Shown here: piece after piece, positions 8,192 to 49,061 of the stretch
Layout: every line of letters starts with the position of its first letter
How positions within the stretch are numbered: the stretch's first letter is position 1
DNA from: Bacteroidia bacterium
Lineage (GTDB): Bacteria; Bacteroidota; Bacteroidia; CAILMK01; JBBDIG01
Assembly: GCA_040880525.1 (NCBI GenBank)
Contig: JBBDIG010000033.1
Location: 1 to 64,000 of the forward strand
DNA: 64,000 nucleotides
Reading direction: 5' to 3'
Notes under the pieces: model-generated
Database searches by the model: none
The model's input: only the letters and a program-made list of their open reading frames with translations
Told to the model about the DNA's origin: nothing
Translations under genes and position numbers: made by a program

Positions 8192-8605
8192 ATGATGAGC
8201 AATATCAAAGAAGATAGAAATGTAGAAGTGTCGCGGTTGCAAAAGGGAGTGCGGGAATATTTGGGTTTGGGATCAGATGAGGTGATATTTGATTTTCAGC
8301 AGAAAGGGGAGCTTACCAGGCTTGATCTGGTTACGGTGAACCCGCGTCATAATCAGTCATTTTTGTTTCATACTGAAGAAGGCGTTGACAAGAAGGATGC
8401 GCTGGAAAAGATGATGCATTATATCAAAACCTACAGAGATAAAGAGAACTCATATACCATTCAATGGATGGCGCGTGGCAGCAATGAACTTCATACCTCC
8501 TATTTCCGGGCAAAAAATATTTATGATGCGCTGGATAAACTGAACTATGGCAGGGACATGACCTCCATTACAGTTTTCAGTGTGGTGCTGAATCCGGTAT
8601 CTTAG
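8192..8605 (+). CDS. Hypothetical protein, 137 residues
   Basis: No family recognised. The protein is soluble, with no signal peptide or membrane segment, and rich in charged residues. The C-terminal half has the form of a small alpha/beta domain (SYTIQWMARGSNELHTSYFRA, then a helix NIYDALDKLNYG and a strand SITVFSVVLNPVS). Either ATG of the initial Met-Met pair could be the start. Its stop codon overlaps that of the convergent gene by four bases (TTAG at 8602-8605). Confidence 0.7.
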   Translation: MMSNIKEDRNVEVSRLQKGVREYLGLGSDEVIFDFQQKGELTRLDLVTVNPRHNQSFLFHTEEGVDKKDALEKMMHYIKTYRDKENSYTIQWMARGSNELHTSYFRAKNIYDALDKLNYGRDMTSITVFSVVLNPVS

Positions 8606-9192
8606 AGCAGTTCCATTTCAAATTCTTCCCAGGTCGCGTCAGTGGGGCCGTTTGGCAATTGATTGATCCTGCGTGGCAATTCATCCTTCACTTCGCTCAC
8701 AAGCTGCGATCCAAAGGCTTTGCTGTCATCAGTATAAATGAAGATTCGATCAAGGAAATCTTCCCATACTTCCAGGAGATCACGTGTGTCAACCGGATCA
8801 AGATGATTGCGGGTTTTATGCTTAAGGTGCGTTAAAATTTCCGATATGATGGTCTCTTTATCGGGTGGACATATCCAGAGGATAGTGTAACTATCATCGA
8901 AAATATCTCTGTCGGTAACCTCATCATCGAGTTGTACAGGTGTATCATCAAAGTAGTAATCATCTTCATCCTCAGGAATAACATCACCGAACTTCATACG
9001 GAAGAGTTCAAGTTTCTCTTCATCCTCAGGATAATGTGGTGGGGGAATTTGCCTTTGAAGTTCTTCAACTGAATCTCCTTTCTTCAACCACTCATACGAC
9101 TCAATGCTTGTGTCGACATAGTAAGGTTCATTGAGATGGAGATTTTTGAACAGATAAAAGGATGGGAGTGATTCCTTTAAAATTTCGGTCAT
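8602..9192 (-). CDS. Hypothetical acidic protein, 196 residues
   Basis: Not recognised. It is strongly acidic, with a run of Asp and Glu around residues 70-105 (PEDEDDYYFDDTPVQLDDE), then a hydrophobic strand YTILWICPP and a helical C-terminal part. No signal peptide or membrane helix. It lies 45 bases downstream of the 9.2-9.9 kb gene on the same strand, so both probably form one transcript led by the candidate RNA element at 10.0 kb. Confidence 0.7.
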   Translation of the reverse strand: MTEILKESLPSFYLFKNLHLNEPYYVDTSIESYEWLKKGDSVEELQRQIPPPHYPEDEEKLELFRMKFGDVIPEDEDDYYFDDTPVQLDDEVTDRDIFDDSYTILWICPPDKETIISEILTHLKHKTRNHLDPVDTRDLLEVWEDFLDRIFIYTDDSKAFGSQLVSEVKDELPRRINQLPNGPTDATWEEFEMELL

Positions 9193-9237: not shown

Positions 9238-9924
9238 CTACCGGTGCATTTTCGCAAAAAGTTCTGACATTTTTGTTGTAGAGACGAGAAGAGCACTTCT
9301 CAGGATTGTCATTTTCTTGTCATAATCCTCGTCTTTGGATTCCAGTGCCAGGTAGTCCAGTGCATTTAGCAGGATGACATGGGTGGTAAAGACATTTTTA
9401 AAACTTTCCATCATTGTCATTTCTCCCACAAGCAATTCCTTGAAGTTGTTACACTTCTGCGCAAGTTCAAGGTAAACATCAATAGGGGCGCTAAAGAGTG
9501 CTTTCTTATGATTGCCATTCAATTTGTTTTCAGGAACATCCTTTTTCCTGCTTTCAAAATGTTCCTGAAAATAATTGCGCAGGTCTTGTATAATCTTGTT
9601 CCGGTAAAATATGGGAAGGATTTTTTGGAGGTTTTGAATGTAGAAGGTGAGCATGCCTACATTCTTAATTTGTATTAACACGTTGTAGACGTTCGTATTT
9701 CCGCTGTCCAGCATGCTGTTCAGTTTCTTGTTTTGCAGCAACTCGGAGAGTGACACGGATTGGGTTCCAGGGAAGAACCGGTCTTGCAGATCAGGTAAAA
9801 AATCTTCAATGTCAAAATCCAGCGGTGTATCCAGGGAAACGTTTTCATACCGTTCTCCAAATTCCTTGATCAGCCACTGATGCATGTTCTCGAATACATC
9901 CCGGTCAATTTTAAGTTTTTCCAT
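9238..9924 (-). CDS. Hypothetical mostly helical protein, 228 residues
   Basis: Not recognised. The predicted composition is almost entirely helical and amphipathic, with Lys-rich and Asp-rich segments (LQNKKLNSMLDSGN, LALESKDEDYDKKMTILRSALL). No export signal. It is the first gene of a probable two-gene unit with the 8.6-9.2 kb gene. Its start lies about 60 bases downstream of the 3' end of the structured element at 9,983-10,126, which makes attenuation or leader control possible. Confidence 0.7.
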   Translation of the reverse strand: MEKLKIDRDVFENMHQWLIKEFGERYENVSLDTPLDFDIEDFLPDLQDRFFPGTQSVSLSELLQNKKLNSMLDSGNTNVYNVLIQIKNVGMLTFYIQNLQKILPIFYRNKIIQDLRNYFQEHFESRKKDVPENKLNGNHKKALFSAPIDVYLELAQKCNNFKELLVGEMTMMESFKNVFTTHVILLNALDYLALESKDEDYDKKMTILRSALLVSTTKMSELFAKMHR

Positions 9925-9982
9925 AACAGACGATTGGTTGATAACAGAACTTTAAAAGGAACGAAGAAACTAAATAAATCGG

Positions 9983-10126
9983 GTATGAAAAGAAAAAACC
10001 GGGAGTATTTCTTTTAAAAGAGGATCATCTTTTAAAGCGGCAGTTGATGAATAGGTGAATAACCTAATAAATACCCCCGGTTCTGTGGATTTTAGCCACG
10101 TATCCTGTCTGACAAATTTTCTAACG
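9983..10126 (-). ncRNA. Candidate structured RNA or leader with terminator
   Basis: On the minus strand, AACCGGGGGTATTT (10,082-10,069) pairs with AAATACTCCCGGTT (10,010-9,997) over 14 pairs. The one imperfect pair is G-U in minus-strand RNA but A-C in plus-strand RNA, which favours minus-strand transcription. Inside lie two hairpins: TTTAAAAGA/TCTTTTAAA (10,013-10,036, 9 bp) and TAGGT/ACCTA (10,052-10,066), giving a three-way junction. The outer stem is followed by a U-rich tract (TTTTTTCTTTTC, 9,998-9,987), as in an intrinsic terminator. A TTTG-N19-TAGATTTG promoter starts the unit. The RNA would be about 140 nt; it resembles no class known to me. Confidence 0.55.
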
Positions 10127-10132
10127 GATGAT

Positions 10133-10163
10133 CAAATCTAAAAAGAAAGCCTGAGAATTCAAA
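10133..10163 (-). promoter_or_regulatory. Near-ideal Bacteroidota promoter of the candidate RNA
   Basis: Read on the minus strand: TTTG (10,163-10,160), exactly 19 bases, then TAGATTTG (10,140-10,133). This matches the primary sigma factor consensus TTTG-N19-TAnnTTTG at every defined position. Transcription would start near 10,126. Confidence 0.65.
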
Positions 10164-10318
10164 CTGCATCGGTTAAGAAATGTAATCGGGAGAAACCGGG
10201 TTACGCAGAAGCAGTACTTTATCACTTTGAGGTATGCAACCTTCCGCTCAATTCAAACAATTAAACCCAAAAACCGCTTTCATGTTAGCAAGATCTAAAA
10301 GGGGGTAATGGAAGTAAA

Positions 10319-10753
10319 ATGAAGTGGAAGTATTATATACCGCATAATCTCCGAAAGGAAATCAGCACTTCCGAGGACATCTACATACTAGGTGAAAACA
10401 GCAAATCGGTGACATATTGGATTACCATTACGAGTATTGGATTTTTCGGAGGGCAGGATGAAGAGCTATTTCATCCTACACTTTTTCATCAGGTGATGAA
10501 AAATCTGAGCGATAGGGACTATTGGATTAATGGAACCGATATGTACATTAATGCCATGAGCTTTACCGAGTCTGAATTGCTGAAATGGCTGAAGCTCTGG
10601 CTAGAGAAAAAAGGGATGCCCTGCCAATCACTTCAGAAAGGTACATTACAGGAGTTCAGGAGAAAAAACAGGGCTATTGATGCTTTCGAGACTGCCTTTG
10701 AGAATATGGTGAATGAGTATTTCAAGGGAAATACTGCATCCAGCAATAGCTGA
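10319..10753 (+). CDS. Hypothetical protein, 144 residues
   Basis: Not recognised. The sequence is soluble and aromatic-rich in its first half (YYIPHNLRK, YWITITSIGFFGG, DYWINGTDMYINAMSF) and helical and basic in its second (LLKWLKLWLEKKGMPCQ). No signal peptide. It starts at ATG 10,319 behind a G-rich ribosome-binding region. It is divergent from the 9.2-9.9 kb gene and convergent with the TPR gene at 10.8 kb. Confidence 0.7.
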   Translation: MKWKYYIPHNLRKEISTSEDIYILGENSKSVTYWITITSIGFFGGQDEELFHPTLFHQVMKNLSDRDYWINGTDMYINAMSFTESELLKWLKLWLEKKGMPCQSLQKGTLQEFRRKNRAIDAFETAFENMVNEYFKGNTASSNS

Positions 10754-10776: not shown

Positions 10777-11298
10777 TTAATTGCAGTGACGGGAAACTAG
10801 TGATGCTGCATCCGGATCTTCGAGTTCTGCGGCCATACGCCAGTTTTCACATGCCTTATTAAAATCTTTGCGGTAGCCATACAATACTCCGAGGTTATAA
10901 TAAGCCTTTGAGTTGTCTCCTGTATAAACAGTAGTCGCCTCAAAATCTGCTATTGCCTTATCGTAAAGTTCTTTCTTTTCATGCACCACTCCGCGATAGT
11001 AATAGGCCTGGTGGTTAGACGAATCCAGCTCAATGGCTTTGGTTAAATCATAGAGTGCCATATCAAGGCTTCCGCTTTTAGCGCGTGCCAATCCCCGGTA
11101 AAGATAGGCTTCAGCATAATCCGGTTTTTTATGAATGGCATTCGTAAAACTGGAAACAGCATCCTTGTAGTCTCCACGTTCAATGCTTTTGTTTCCCTTC
11201 GCCATCCAATCCTGCGGCTTCTGTGCTAAAGACTGGAAGTTCAGCGAGGTGAAAAGTACGGTGATCAGAATTGCGGTAATCGAATTTCTATTTTTCAT
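10777..11298 (-). CDS. Exported TPR protein, 173 residues
   Basis: A signal peptide (MKNRNSITAILITVLFTSLNFQSLAQ) precedes about four tetratricopeptide repeats (residues ~35-165) with the usual pattern A..YLYRGLA...G..D.A..DL.KAIELD. The repeats form a helical scaffold for protein-protein contacts, here in the periplasm. The next gene upstream (11.4-12.6 kb) codes for a longer protein of the same build; both end in a Cys near the C-terminus (SRHCN, LRLYCE), which suggests duplication and partial loss. Confidence 0.85.
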   Translation of the reverse strand: MKNRNSITAILITVLFTSLNFQSLAQKPQDWMAKGNKSIERGDYKDAVSSFTNAIHKKPDYAEAYLYRGLARAKSGSLDMALYDLTKAIELDSSNHQAYYYRGVVHEKKELYDKAIADFEATTVYTGDNSKAYYNLGVLYGYRKDFNKACENWRMAAELEDPDAASLVSRHCN

Positions 11299-16485: not shown

Positions 16486-16525
16486 AAAAACGCCCTGACA
16501 GCTTACTTGCTGTCAGGGTGTTTTA
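16486..16525. terminator. Bidirectional intrinsic terminator
   Basis: CGCCCTGACAGC (16,491-16,502) pairs with GCTGTCAGGGTG (16,509-16,520) with one wobble or mismatch, loop of six. T-rich tracts flank it on both strands (TTTTAGTTTT on plus, a run of six T on minus), so it can end both the desaturase and the convergent dehydrogenase transcripts. Confidence 0.85.
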
Positions 16526-44337: not shown

Positions 44338-46320
44338 TCAGGAGGCCTCCATTGCCTGCATTTTCGCTGGCTTCTCGGTGAGCGCGCTGATCATCCCCAG
44401 GCGTTGTTCTGCACTTTGGAGAATGTTGCCCAGCATTCCGCTGTAAGAGAGGCCATGGAGTTTAGCCATTTTGTTCAGGTGGCCATCCCAGCACCAACCG
44501 GGATTGGGGTTGGCTTCCAGAAGTTTGGGTGTGCCGTTGCCGTCAATCCTCCAGTCGAAGCGGGAATAGTCGCGGCATTCAAGGCGTTCGGCAAGTTTGA
44601 GGCATGCTTCTTCAAGAAACTTCCGGGTTTCTTCCTGCAGTTCAGCCGGCACTGACTTCAGGTTCCAATAGGGCGACTGCGGATCCCATTTGGCTTCATA
44701 GCCGCAGATCCTGGGAAGCTCCTCCGGCAGGGCAGAATAATCCTCTTCTATTATCGGGAGGATGGTGTAGCTCTCAGGTGTATTCCCGATAATGCCCACG
44801 CTCAGGTCTTTTCCGATCAGAAATTCTTCTACCAGAATAGGCTTTTCCATTCCAATCCGTTCCCGAACCTGATTTATCGCAAAGATCAGTTCACGTGCAT
44901 TATTGGCTACGCTGTTCTGCGTAATTCCAATACTTGAATCACCAAAATTCGGTTTCACAATAACCGGAAAATTAAAGGGAAGCTCAAAGGTCTGATCTTC
45001 GGGCCTGATGAAAAATGCATCGGGGACGGGAATGCCCATTTCTTTGGCGATACCGCGAACCAGCGACTTATCATAGCAATAGGCCAGGCATTGCGGATTG
45101 CTTCCGCTATATGGAATCCCCAGCATCTCAAGCAGGGAAGGCACGTGCAGTTCTTTACGGGCATCGTTGGCAAATCCTTCATCGCACAGGTTGAATACGT
45201 AATCAACTTTGTCTTTTATTTTCACCAGGTCCTGATACATTGTATCGTGGTTGTTCAGGAAACTAAACTGGTATCCCGGCAACTTCGCCAGGGCTTCCTT
45301 CAGTTGGTTGATGGTGTGGTTATCGTCCTCATCCCAGATGCCTTCAGGCTTTACAGGATCTATCTTGGTGGGATCGCCCATGAGCACTGCCACGTGCTTT
45401 TTGCCTTTTGCAGCTTTCTTTGAAACAGGGGTCCATTCCTTCTTTATTTCAGCGGTAACGATGTGGCGGCTGGCCATCATTCCCAGGTCCTGGTTTCGCT
45501 GGCTGTTAGGTGAAATTTCCCCGTGTACGATCACATTACCAAAACCGATTTTTGACAACAGCTTTTCCATTGCTTCCTCGGTATAGAGCCGCTCTGCGTA
45601 AAACCGGTCATCAATCACGCCCTTGTCTACATGGGTGATCACTTCACGGCTCACGAGGCGGTCTCCATCGGCTGATAGCGAGCGCTCCCGAGCTACGAAG
45701 TAGTTCTTGTCAATCCACTCCCATGATCTGGCCTGGAAATTATCTTTCAGATGCTGGCCGTTGGCCACATCCACCAGCAGCTTTCCATCGGGCTTCAGGA
45801 TACGGGCAATCTCGCGCAATATCTTCTGGTCCTCTTTCGGGTTCTCGAAATAGCCGAAGCTGTTGCCGAGGATCATTACCACGTCAAAACTATCAGTCGG
45901 AAAAGGAAGTTTACGGGCATCGCCTTCACGGAATTTCACAGGCAGGTTTTCCTTCTTTACTGAAGCTTTTGCCCGCTGAATGAGGTAACGGGAGCGGTCC
46001 ATGCCTTCGATGTTGGTATAGCCGCGCCTGGCAAATTCCAGGGCATGGCGTCCCTGACCGCAGGCTAAGTCCAGCATGTGTGCATCTTTCGGAATATTGA
46101 GCGTCTTTTCAAAGAGGTCAATTTCTTCCCGCGTAATGTTGATGTCATCCACTACATCAGCGTCAGTCTTTAAATATAGCGAATTGAAGATGCGCCTCCA
46201 CCAGTCGCTCTCTACATATTGTTCCAGATTCTCTACCGGTCCCAGGAATTTACGCTGGGGCTTCACTTTCTTTTGTTGGCCTTGCAGAGGCTTTGCAGGT
46301 TTTACCTTTTGGTTTGTCAT
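44338..46320 (-). CDS. Fusion of class I methyltransferase and D-Ala-D-Ala ligase-like ATP-grasp
   Basis: 660 residues. Residues 1-29 are Lys-rich. Residues ~36-292 form a SAM methyltransferase (MLDLACGQGRHALEFARRGY at 82-101, GDARKLPFPTDSFDVVMILGNSFGYF). A basic linker (293-308) leads to an ATP-grasp enzyme (309-650) with KHVAVLMGDPTK, SLLEMLGIPYSGSNP, FPVIVKPNFGDSSIGI, PILVEEFLIGKDLSVGI and the metal-binding end KLLEANPNPGWCWDGHLNKMA in place of the ligase E-x-N-x-x-P. The ligase would join two carboxyl/amine substrates with ATP; the methyltransferase may modify the product. Neither substrate is known. It stands alone beside the repeat cluster. Confidence 0.82.
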   Translation of the reverse strand: MTNQKVKPAKPLQGQQKKVKPQRKFLGPVENLEQYVESDWWRRIFNSLYLKTDADVVDDINITREEIDLFEKTLNIPKDAHMLDLACGQGRHALEFARRGYTNIEGMDRSRYLIQRAKASVKKENLPVKFREGDARKLPFPTDSFDVVMILGNSFGYFENPKEDQKILREIARILKPDGKLLVDVANGQHLKDNFQARSWEWIDKNYFVARERSLSADGDRLVSREVITHVDKGVIDDRFYAERLYTEEAMEKLLSKIGFGNVIVHGEISPNSQRNQDLGMMASRHIVTAEIKKEWTPVSKKAAKGKKHVAVLMGDPTKIDPVKPEGIWDEDDNHTINQLKEALAKLPGYQFSFLNNHDTMYQDLVKIKDKVDYVFNLCDEGFANDARKELHVPSLLEMLGIPYSGSNPQCLAYCYDKSLVRGIAKEMGIPVPDAFFIRPEDQTFELPFNFPVIVKPNFGDSSIGITQNSVANNARELIFAINQVRERIGMEKPILVEEFLIGKDLSVGIIGNTPESYTILPIIEEDYSALPEELPRICGYEAKWDPQSPYWNLKSVPAELQEETRKFLEEACLKLAERLECRDYSRFDWRIDGNGTPKLLEANPNPGWCWDGHLNKMAKLHGLSYSGMLGNILQSAEQRLGMISALTEKPAKMQAMEAS

Positions 46321-46404
46321 AGTATGCTTTAAAAAATGTGCGCGAAATTATGTTTAAAGCGAATATGAAAGGCAATTTGTTTTGAGGGTCATGCCGGAGG
46401 CCGG

Positions 46405-46442
46405 CAGGTTTCTGAAGGCGTTTGCCTCTGCCTCCTGAAAGA
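46405..46442 (+). pseudogene. Degenerate 3' end of gliding-motility C-terminal domain
   Basis: The stretch GTTTCTGAAGGCGTTTGCC and what follows resembles the intact end at 47,643-47,678 (GTTCCTGAAGGCGTTTACC). It would read SEGVCLCLLK instead of PEGVYLYLLK. There is no upstream part, so it is a remnant. A hairpin TGCCGG/CCGGCA lies just before it (46,392-46,406). Confidence 0.5.
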
Positions 46443-46444
46443 TT

Positions 46445-46552
46445 GTTTTTAAAACCATTTCAATGGTTTGGGTCTTTGTTTGATCGCTATTCCCACGGTT
46501 AAAACCGTGGGCTACGGATGCGACTATTATTTGGCGTTGTGATCGCCATTGG
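46445..46552. repeat. Direct repeat, left copy
   Basis: Contains AAACCATT-tc-AATGGTTT (46,452-46,469) and CCCACGGTT-aa-AACCGTGGG (46,492-46,511). The same order, spacing and flanking words (TGATCGC, GATCGCCATTGG) recur at 47,844-47,951. Confidence 0.65.
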
Positions 46553-46587
46553 ACGAAAATATTGGCCGGGACGGAACAGGTGCTTCA
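46549..46587 (+). pseudogene. Short sorting-domain fragment before element copy 1
   Basis: Encodes DENIGRDGTGAS, the end of the same segment found at 47,139-47,178, 47,385-47,418 and 47,604-47,630 (GENEGWDGTVAS, GENIGWDGTV). The element begins directly after it, as in the other units. Confidence 0.55.
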
Positions 46588-46697
46588 TGTAGGTCCGATT
46601 TGTTATCGGACCATTCCGCGACAGCGGAATATCAGGGCCGGGTAGGAGAGCTGTGTCATCCAGCCATGGTAGCCCGTTGCCGGGCCTGTCCCAATCA
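46588..46697. repeat. TGTAGGTCC element, copy 1 (right end truncated)
   Basis: Begins TGTAGGTCC with hairpins GTCCGAT/ATCGGAC and ATTCCGC-gaca-GCGGAAT. The copy lacks the last ~13 bases and the terminal inverted repeat, and continues directly into copy 2, giving a 110-bp tandem step. Confidence 0.75.
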
Positions 46698-46819
46698 TGT
46701 AGGTCCGATTTGTTATCGGACAATTCCGCGACAGCGGAATATCAGGGCTGGGTACGAGAGCTGTGTCATTCAACCATGGTAGCCCGTTCCGGCTTGTCCC
46801 AATGCAATTGGGACCTACA
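46698..46819. repeat. TGTAGGTCC element, copy 2 (complete)
   Basis: 122 bp with TGTAGGTCC at the left end and GGACCTACA at the right end. Inner hairpins are GTCCGAT/ATCGGAC, ATTCCGC/GCGGAAT and GTCCCAAT-gca-ATTGGGAC. No open frame is apparent, so it would be a non-autonomous element. Confidence 0.8.
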
Positions 46820-46961
46820 TTAACCGACTGATATGGCTTATGCCTTTAAAGTGTTTTATACCGTTCGTGGCTGTGGTTCGCTAATTTGGTTTGAACCTGG
46901 ACTAACATCTTGACCTACGTGATAAATGAGGGCAATACAGTATATTTGACAATAGCTTAAC

Positions 46962-47064
46962 CGCACGCGTTACGCTTTGCTAAACGCGCGCTAACGTGGT
47001 GAGGATAATACACTAAATTTGGTATGCTAAAGCGCACGCGTTGTTAAACGAAACGCGCGCTATC
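46962..47064. repeat. Two copies of a CGCGTT/AACGCG palindrome
   Basis: GCACGCGTT..AACGCGCGC occurs at 46,963-46,991 and again at 47,033-47,060, each with 9-11 bases between the arms. The second copy ends where a sorting-domain fragment begins. The sequence is G+C-rich and unlike its surroundings. Confidence 0.6.
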
Positions 47065-47067
47065 TGA

Positions 47068-47178
47068 GGGCTTTCCAGCCGGATAAGTCCGGCCACGGGC
47101 CAACTCTCGATCTACAACCGCTGTGGCGAACCCAACTGGAAAGGCGAGAATTAAAACCGGAACGGAACAGTTGCCTCA
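47068..47178 (+). pseudogene. Sorting-domain fragment B
   Basis: Reads ATGQLSIYNRCGEPNWKGEN, then an in-frame TAA, then NRNGTVAS. It belongs to the gliding-motility-associated C-terminal domain (consensus -IYNRWGE- ... -WDGT-) of type IX secretion cargo. The element copy 3 starts at the same place as in the other units. Confidence 0.65.
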
Positions 47179-47301
47179 TGTAGGTCCGATTTATTATCGG
47201 ACAATTCCGCGACAGCGGAATATCAGAGCCGGGTAGGAGAGCTGTGTCATTCAGCCGTAGTAGCCCGTTCCTGGCTTGTCCCAATGCAATTGGGACCTAC
47301 A
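47179..47301. repeat. TGTAGGTCC element, copy 3
   Basis: 123 bp, TGTAGGTCC ... GGACCTACA. It carries the same inner hairpins as copy 2, with single-base differences (TTATTATCGG instead of TTGTTATCGG; CCGTAG instead of CCATGG). Confidence 0.8.
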
Positions 47302-47306
47302 TTAAT

Positions 47307-47418
47307 TCGGCTTTCCAGTAGGATAAGTCCGGCCACGGGCCAACTCTCGATCTACAACCGCTGTGGCGAAACCATCTGGAAAGGAGAAAATGAAGGATGG
47401 GACGGAACAGTGGCTTCA
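47307..47418 (+). pseudogene. Sorting-domain fragment C
   Basis: Reads ISPATGQLSIYNRCGETIWK and GENEGWDGTVAS without an internal stop, then runs into the element. With copy 3 it forms a 240-bp unit that is repeated with fragment C plus copy 4. Confidence 0.65.
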
Positions 47419-47542
47419 TGTAGGTCCGATTTATTATCGGACAATTCCGCGACAGCGGAATATCAGGGCCGGGTACGAGATCTGTGTCATTCAGCCGTAG
47501 TAGCCCGTTGCCGGGCTTGTCCCAATGTAATTGGGACCTACA
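47419..47542. repeat. TGTAGGTCC element, copy 4
   Basis: 124 bp. TGTAGGTCC at 47,419 and GGACCTACA at 47,534-47,542. AGCCCG-ttgc-CGGGCT is a perfect hairpin in this copy. It is nearly identical to copy 3. Confidence 0.8.
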
Positions 47543-47547
47543 TTAAT

Positions 47548-47681
47548 TCGGCTTTCCAGCCGGATAAGTCCACAACCGCTGTGGCGAAACCATCTGGAAA
47601 GGAGAAAATATTGGTTGGGATGGAACAGTCATAGGTGAGCCGGTTCCTGAAGGCGTTTACCTGTATTTGTTAAAGCAATAG
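47548..47681 (+). pseudogene. Sorting-domain fragment D with intact C-terminus
   Basis: Compared with fragment C, 23 bases are missing after GATAAGTCC, which shifts the frame. No element is inserted, so the coding end is complete: NRCGETIWKGENIGWDGTVI then GEPVPEGVYLYLLKQ and stop at 47,679-47,681. This shows what the interrupted copies once encoded: the C-terminus of a gliding-motility-type cargo protein whose main part is absent. Confidence 0.7.
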
Positions 47682-47777
47682 ACGATACTGCCGCTCCCCA
47701 TTATTTTAAAGGGAATGTGAGGTGGTGAGGTAGTTCTAACTTTTGTGGTTGGATGTAATCAATTCTTGCAGTCACCG

Positions 47778-47820
47778 CAGGCGGGACGCCTGGGGATAGT
47801 TCACACTCGCCAGAGGCGAG
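47778..47820. repeat. Pair of perfect hairpins
   Basis: CAGGCG-gga-CGCCTG (47,778-47,792) and CTCGCC-aga-GGCGAG (47,806-47,820). They resemble a REP-like pair, inside the enclosed array and just left of the right-hand direct repeat. Confidence 0.6.
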
Positions 47821-47843
47821 CGAGAGCGGTGGTTAGCTGCCAG

Positions 47844-47951
47844 TTTTTAAAACCATTGAAATGGTTAGGGGTGTATGTTTTGATCGCCTTTCCCACGGTT
47901 GAAAACGTGGGCTATGGGTAGTGATTGTGATTGGGTTGCGATCGCTATTGG
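47844..47951. repeat. Direct repeat, right copy
   Basis: AACCATT-ga-AATGGTT (47,851-47,866), then CCCACG/CGTGGG (47,892-47,911) and GATCGCTATTGG, in the same order as in 46,445-46,552. A degenerate third relative, AGCCCACG..TTCTTGGGG, follows at 47,976-47,999. Confidence 0.65.
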
Positions 47952-48111
47952 TTAAATGGCTTTATTAATAAACATAGCCCACGAATTTAATTCTTGGGGC
48001 AAGAGGTTAAACCAAGGAGATGGAAGGGTTTTAACTATTTCCCCTCGTTATAATTGAACGCTTTTTAGTTTTCAGCGTTTCTTAATATTTTAACAGGAAA
48101 AATCATAAACT

Positions 48112-48267
48112 ATGAGCGGCTGCCTGTATATTGTTGCCATTATTCTTGTCATCGGCTGGATACTCGGTTTTTTCTATGGCGATGTAGGAGACCTGATCCA
48201 CATATTGCTGGTGCTGGCAATCATAGCCGTTCTTATTAGAATCATTGGTGGCAGGAGAATTTTATAA
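48112..48267 (+). CDS. lmo0937-type small membrane protein, 51 residues
   Basis: ATG at 48,112 gives MSGCLYIVAIILVIGWILGF, then FYGDVGDLIHILLVLAIIAV and LIRIIGGRRIL. Two hydrophobic helices separated by a Gly-Asp turn and ending in RR is the pattern of the lmo0937/DUF5670 family, small membrane proteins often induced by stress and of unknown function. The length is typical. It lies directly after the repeat cluster, and no RBS stands out beyond ACAGGAA (48,093-48,099). Confidence 0.75.
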   Translation: MSGCLYIVAIILVIGWILGFFYGDVGDLIHILLVLAIIAVLIRIIGGRRIL

Positions 48268-48464
48268 CCATCATTCTTTAAATTACAGGATTTTAATATT
48301 CCCAATCCCGATTTATTTCATAAATTATTTAAAAATTAATCTTTTAATAATTGATCCGATTTTATTCAAAATTATTAAAAAGGGACGTTTGACAATGCTT
48401 CAATTTAAAAAGCACATTTTGCTCTTTATGTGCTTGAAACCATAACTATCCATTTCTTTCACCG

Positions 48465-49061
48465 TTATTTGGCTTTTCTCAGGGGAATGAGTTTGCGCCA
48501 GAAAATATCCGGGTTGTTTTTCGTGATGTTCACAGGGTCGGATACTTCCTGAAGGTCTTCCAGGGTATAAAATACATGCGGATGTTCCTGGCGCAGGAGC
48601 GCTATGATCTGTGGCAAATTCCTGCGTTTTACAACAGAGAATAAAATGCTGATCTTGCCTTCATTTCCCATTCCGTCAATTACGTTTACCCTCAGCCCCA
48701 GTTTCTTGAGATCTCCGGCAAGGGGCGAAGAAGTTTCTGGCGTAATGATACGAATGATCATTTGACCCAGGGCCAGTTTCTGCTCTATGCGCAGGCCGAT
48801 GTAATTTCCTACGGCAAATCCTGCCGCCCAGGAAATGTATGCCAGCGGACTGGTGAGATGCTGCATCAGTTGGCTGATAGCGATAATCCAGATCAGCACT
48901 TCGAAAAATCCCAGGAAGGGCGCTAATTTCTTGTCGCCCCGCGAAATGAAAACGATGCGTAATGTTCCGAGCGATACATCCAGCAAGCGCGCACAGAAGA
49001 TAAGCAACGGAATGATTACCCACCGCACTATTTCCGGGTTCAGATATTCTGCAAAATTCAT
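48465..49061 (-). CDS. UPF0316 family membrane protein
   Basis: 198 residues: three to four helices in the first half (IIPLLIFCARLLDVSLGTLRIVFISRG, LAPFLGFFEVLIWIIAISQ, ISWAAGFAVGNYIGLRIEQKLALG), then a soluble DUF2179-like domain (GMGNEGKISILFSVVKRRNLPQIIALLRQEHPHVFYTLEDLQEVSD). This is the DUF5698+DUF2179 layout of UPF0316 proteins, whose function is unknown. A TACCTTTG -7 element lies 19 bases upstream (49,080-49,087, minus). Confidence 0.88.
   Translation of the reverse strand: MNFAEYLNPEIVRWVIIPLLIFCARLLDVSLGTLRIVFISRGDKKLAPFLGFFEVLIWIIAISQLMQHLTSPLAYISWAAGFAVGNYIGLRIEQKLALGQMIIRIITPETSSPLAGDLKKLGLRVNVIDGMGNEGKISILFSVVKRRNLPQIIALLRQEHPHVFYTLEDLQEVSDPVNITKNNPDIFWRKLIPLRKAK

Follow-up and report, generated by a model that had tools for sequence, protein, structure and literature searches.

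A minus-strand RNA of about 140 nt, with its own promoter and a strong intrinsic terminator, is very probably encoded ahead of the genes p228 and p196 in the 64,000-nt stretch of DNA analysed here (the window). The co-occurrence of a promoter, a structured stem and a U-tract, noted in an earlier sequence-only reading, was confirmed. The most economical explanation, which we favour tentatively and at somewhat less than an even chance, is that the short, intrinsically terminated RNA also serves as the 5' leader of p228-p196; an independent sRNA comes close behind and is almost equally likely. The leader reading is supported because promoter and stem point in the same direction and the stem lies far beyond chance expectation, and because p228 is on the same strand, about 70 bases away, with no near-consensus promoter site between it and the terminator. 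It is weakened by the lack of an antiterminator fold above chance, of a leader peptide and of a homologue for covariation analysis. The features concerned are as follows.

8602-9192, minus strand: p196, second gene downstream of the RNA (196 aa), with distant homologues in one other family.
9238-9924, minus strand: p228, first gene downstream (228 aa), without known family or convincing homologue.
9986-10129, minus strand: putative short RNA of about 140 nt, delimited by promoter, terminator and folds.
9987-9998, minus strand: U-tract TTTTTTCTTTTC, completing the intrinsic-terminator shape.
9995-10010, minus strand: 3' arm of the outer stem, from the predicted fold.
10013-10036, minus strand: predicted inner hairpin P3, UUUAAAAGA-UGAUCC-UCUUUUAAA, 9 bp.
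10037-10051, minus strand: unpaired linker UUCAUCAACUGCCGC between P2 and P3, part of which pairs weakly with the 5' arm (10079-10073).
10052-10066, minus strand: predicted inner hairpin P2, UAGGU-UAUUC-ACCUA, 5 bp.
10069-10084, minus strand: 5' arm of the outer stem, 14 pairs with one G-U or 16 with two.
10133-10163, minus strand: sigma-ABfr-type promoter, TTTG (10163-10160), 19-base spacer and TAGATTTG (10140-10133).
10319-10753, plus strand: p144, divergent neighbour (144 aa), with a genuine coding signal and without family.
10777-11298: TPR gene, convergent with p144 and about 24 bases from it.

The string TTTG-N19-TAGATTTG is an exact match to the Bacteroidota housekeeping promoter consensus, and the letters, coordinates and strand originally given for it are correct. 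Taken without its position, the string is not significant and proves little, occurring once in the window against 2.06 occurrences expected by chance. Within 464 kb of the same genome, 7 of the 14 full matches are intergenic and face a gene start, in a class of DNA that makes up only about 8% of strand-bases. The rate of the full string in such DNA is about 9e-5 per base, and a chance match at most 100 bases from the stem is, by a post hoc estimate, about a 1% event. The match at 10163-10133 gains weight because it occupies just this intergenic position facing a gene start. In Flavobacterium psychrophilum the -7 box lies at -12 to -5 (PMC9723704), which places the predicted start of the RNA near 10129-10128 on the minus strand and gives it a length of about 140 nt.

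The 14-pair arms of the outer stem (10082-10069 with 10010-9997) contain a single G-U pair, with TTTTTTCTTTT next; the helix extends to 16 pairs (10084-9995) if two G-U pairs are counted. It closes a branched 58-nt loop that holds the two hairpins, giving a three-way junction combined with a terminator. The minus-strand fold of 9986-10086 has a free energy of -30.7 kcal/mol and a z-score of -5.71, equalled by none of 200 shuffles, compared with a z-score of -3.26 for the plus strand, which favours the minus strand for the RNA. The stem, both hairpins and the U-rich tract had thus been placed and spelled accurately, and the argument for direction drawn from the imperfect pair (G-U in minus-strand RNA, A-C on the plus strand) is upheld, in agreement with the fold z-scores. 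P3 (10013-10036) is itself made of two near-identical self-complementary blocks, CTTTAAAAG and CTTTTAAAAG.

Stems of this class, with 14 or more pairs (no more than one of them G-U and five or more G-C) and a loop of more than about 30 nt, arise in first-order Markov sequence at an average of 0.025 per 64 kb; the window contains exactly one. A large-loop stem followed by a T-tail, of which the window has one, appeared in 0 of 80 random 64-kb sequences. No other large-loop stem of at least 13 bp in 464 kb of this genome has a comparable T-rich tail. Stem-plus-T-run terminators are used elsewhere in this genome with short loops, and the loops of the remaining long, strongly T-tailed stems in the 464 kb measure 3-18 bases. 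Among the T-tailed hairpins listed in divergent intergenic regions, no other has an outer helix of more than 9 pairs; one of them (L041) has an inner 13-bp short-loop hairpin. The large-loop branched terminator at 9986-10084 is mildly unusual relative to its own genome. At 16487-16524, a convergent intergenic region holds a strong intrinsic terminator of the ordinary kind (16 bp, 6-base loop). Further along the window, a repeat-rich intergenic stretch (46320-48465) carries, at 46587-47560, several copies of a self-folding unit of about 125 bases (ATGTAGGTCCGATTTNTTATCGGACAA ... TTGTCCCAATGCAATTGGGACCTACAT); three copies form inverted-repeat pairs, and a comparison with 400 kb of this genome gave no match to the unit.

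The best coding score falls in the gene's own frame for each of p228, p196, p144, p137 and the TPR gene, so the interval 9925-10318 is genuinely intergenic and divergent. As real genes diverge on both sides of it, no neighbouring same-strand gene upstream accounts for the terminator. Searches of Pfam, NCBIfam, PADLOC and PHROGs gave no convincing match for p228, p196 or p144, and single-sequence AlphaFold models of p228 and p196 (pLDDT 48-51) were too poor to serve as structure-search queries. No consensus promoter within 2 mismatches occurs between the terminator and the start of p228. Because p144 likewise has no such site, the missing second promoter is a weak argument. An mRNA of p228 starting near 10128 would carry a 5' leader of some 204 nt, which is structured-leader-like and far longer than the reported 5' UTR medians, 24 and 32 nt (PMC9723704).

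According to the leader reading, RNA polymerase would start near 10128 on the minus strand from a housekeeping-type promoter, and the resulting RNA of about 140 nt would mostly end at the long branched intrinsic terminator, at about 9990. Polymerases reading through this terminator would produce the mRNA of p228-p196, and the terminator would thereby limit its amount. Transcription, termination, co-transcription with p228 and control by read-through are all steps that we infer from the arrangement of the DNA.

In folds of the growing transcript, the 5' arm (10079-10073) at first pairs with the linker (10044-10038), at -7.6 kcal/mol, a transient interaction that precedes synthesis of the 3' arm. 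This competitor is matched by 24% of shuffles of the inner sequence and so offers no positive evidence for an antiterminator; no mutually exclusive antiterminator fold above chance was found when folding was compared with shuffled inner sequences. A protein or a ribosome might still make the switch at the stem. The frames of the leader contain no leader peptide with diagnostic codons over the terminator; the sole ATG frame is a four-codon MILF-stop at 10028, accompanied by three short GTG/TTG frames. A stop-free frame of about 50 codons (9973-10131, minus strand) runs through the RNA without an ATG, GTG or TTG start and is probably due to chance. Rfam yielded nothing at gathering thresholds for 9983-10163, and merely spurious matches, such as a microRNA stem, at E-values up to 10, which bears out the initial impression that no known class is represented. 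Of the interpretation offered at that stage, the sequence gives good support to a structured minus-strand RNA that has a promoter and a terminator; ligand sensing is unsupported, and no ligand class is indicated. It is improbable that the RNA is a lineage-restricted leader whose sensing domain, the two hairpins and the single-stranded linker, sits inside the terminator stem, with binding deciding stem closure and hence transcription of p228-p196. If the loop did sense something, it would constitute a new regulatory leader.

Relatives of the RNA were sought among genomes of which the nearest belong to the same order, with none closer. The RNA is single-copy, with no other copies in its genome. 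An Infernal model built from the single sequence returned only weak, generic matches across the order and 295 genomes of the class. The best match within the order (L043, E 7e-5) is flanked on one side by the 3' end of the gene for a sigma-54-type regulator and on the other by a thioredoxin-like gene; it was rejected as a homologue, as no comparable unit occurs there and it reads as the regulator gene's own terminator. The other inspected matches were rejected as short generic terminators or poor matches. For p228, no convincing homologue was found in 395 class genomes, GTDB 220, plasmids or viral contigs, and across 300-400 class genomes the RNA, p228 and p144 had no convincing relatives. Ten genomes from a single other family of the class carry p196 homologues with 25-31% identity, and in several of these genomes the p196 homologue stands immediately before a TIGR02757-like gene (the two tested were both TIGR02757); a functional link between this protein of unknown function and TIGR02757 is possible. 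Neither a p228 homologue nor the RNA was detected beside the p196 homologues of that family. In a synteny search anchored on a conserved gene nearby, that of a 2-oxoacid oxidoreductase (closest match 68%), tblastn detected none of the genes neighbouring the RNA at the corresponding loci. No homologous locus for covariation was found in the order or class genomes.

The strongest competitor to the leader reading, credible although held with less confidence, is an independent intergenic, trans-acting sRNA whose seed would lie in the linker or the 5' segment, with p228-p196 using a less canonical promoter of their own. Possession of both promoter and terminator is the hallmark of the intergenic sRNAs of Bacteroides thetaiotaomicron (PMC7366714), and a strong terminator without a switching fold fits such an RNA well. 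However, p228 follows on the same strand after only about 70 bases, and the terminator loop is much larger than those of the genome's other strong terminators. We consider it unlikely that the stem serves to halt spurious minus-strand transcripts, such as those running on from the TPR gene antisense to p144, next to a promoter match arising by chance. The convergence of these two genes and the expected number of promoter strings per window are compatible with this idea, but the rate of the string, which makes a chance match just ahead of the stem about a 1% event, argues against it, as does the distance of nearly 700 bases between the TPR gene and the stem.

Still less probable is a DNA-level inverted repeat, such as an operator or a mobile-element remnant, with no role as RNA. 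The stem does fold on the plus strand too, yet the genome has a single copy, no direct repeats are visible at the stem ends, and the wobble pair and T-tract favour a minus-strand RNA. An integron attC site was considered and dropped on inspection of the sequence, as the motifs at the ends are wrong for one. That the RNA is this lineage's own divergent 6S RNA is very improbable. In its favour, neither RF00013 nor RF01685 has a match anywhere in the genome, 9983-10163 included; this means little, as RF01685 reaches its cut-off in none of the control genomes. Moreover, the predicted three-way junction with a terminator differs from a rod with a central bubble, and 6S RNA is normally conserved, whereas this RNA has no relatives even within the order.

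Type III toxin-antitoxin loci follow the order promoter, RNA, terminator and toxin gene, and part of this order (promoter, short RNA, terminator, gene) recurs here. Unlike in those loci, no tandem RNA repeats are seen, and no ToxN/CptN/TenpN-type toxin lies downstream: p228 has no toxin family match in Pfam, NCBIfam or PADLOC, and p196, as a candidate type III toxin, has no convincing family match.

Closer parallels exist within the Bacteroidota. The sRNAs of B. thetaiotaomicron include 49 high-confidence intergenic ones with a start site and a terminator, 27 of them strain-specific, and also UTR-derived ones (PMC7366714). These intergenic and 5' UTR-derived sRNAs share with the RNA predicted here a sigma-ABfr promoter, a Rho-independent terminator, a length within 30-500 nt (here a predicted one) and often a strain-specific distribution. 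The RNA described here has an exact sigma-ABfr promoter match at its 5' end and a stem with a T-tract, predictive of a Rho-independent terminator, at its 3' end; it differs in that its terminator stem encloses a branched 58-nt loop and in being a prediction from sequence. The 64 structured 5' leaders of F. psychrophilum (PMC9723704) resemble it in RNA structure, in the length of the 5' leader and in the TAnnTTTG promoter, whereas here there is no leader peptide, no known ligand class and a pair of downstream genes of unknown function. Since transcriptome studies of Bacteroidota regularly describe terminated, strain-specific sRNAs as well as structured leaders, the RNA is of a known kind, an ordinary but orphan candidate. 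Collectively, it represents a sound candidate RNA gene from a poorly sampled Bacteroidota lineage, recognised from its DNA; transcriptome work on the phylum has yielded many such candidates, and this orphan is one more of them.
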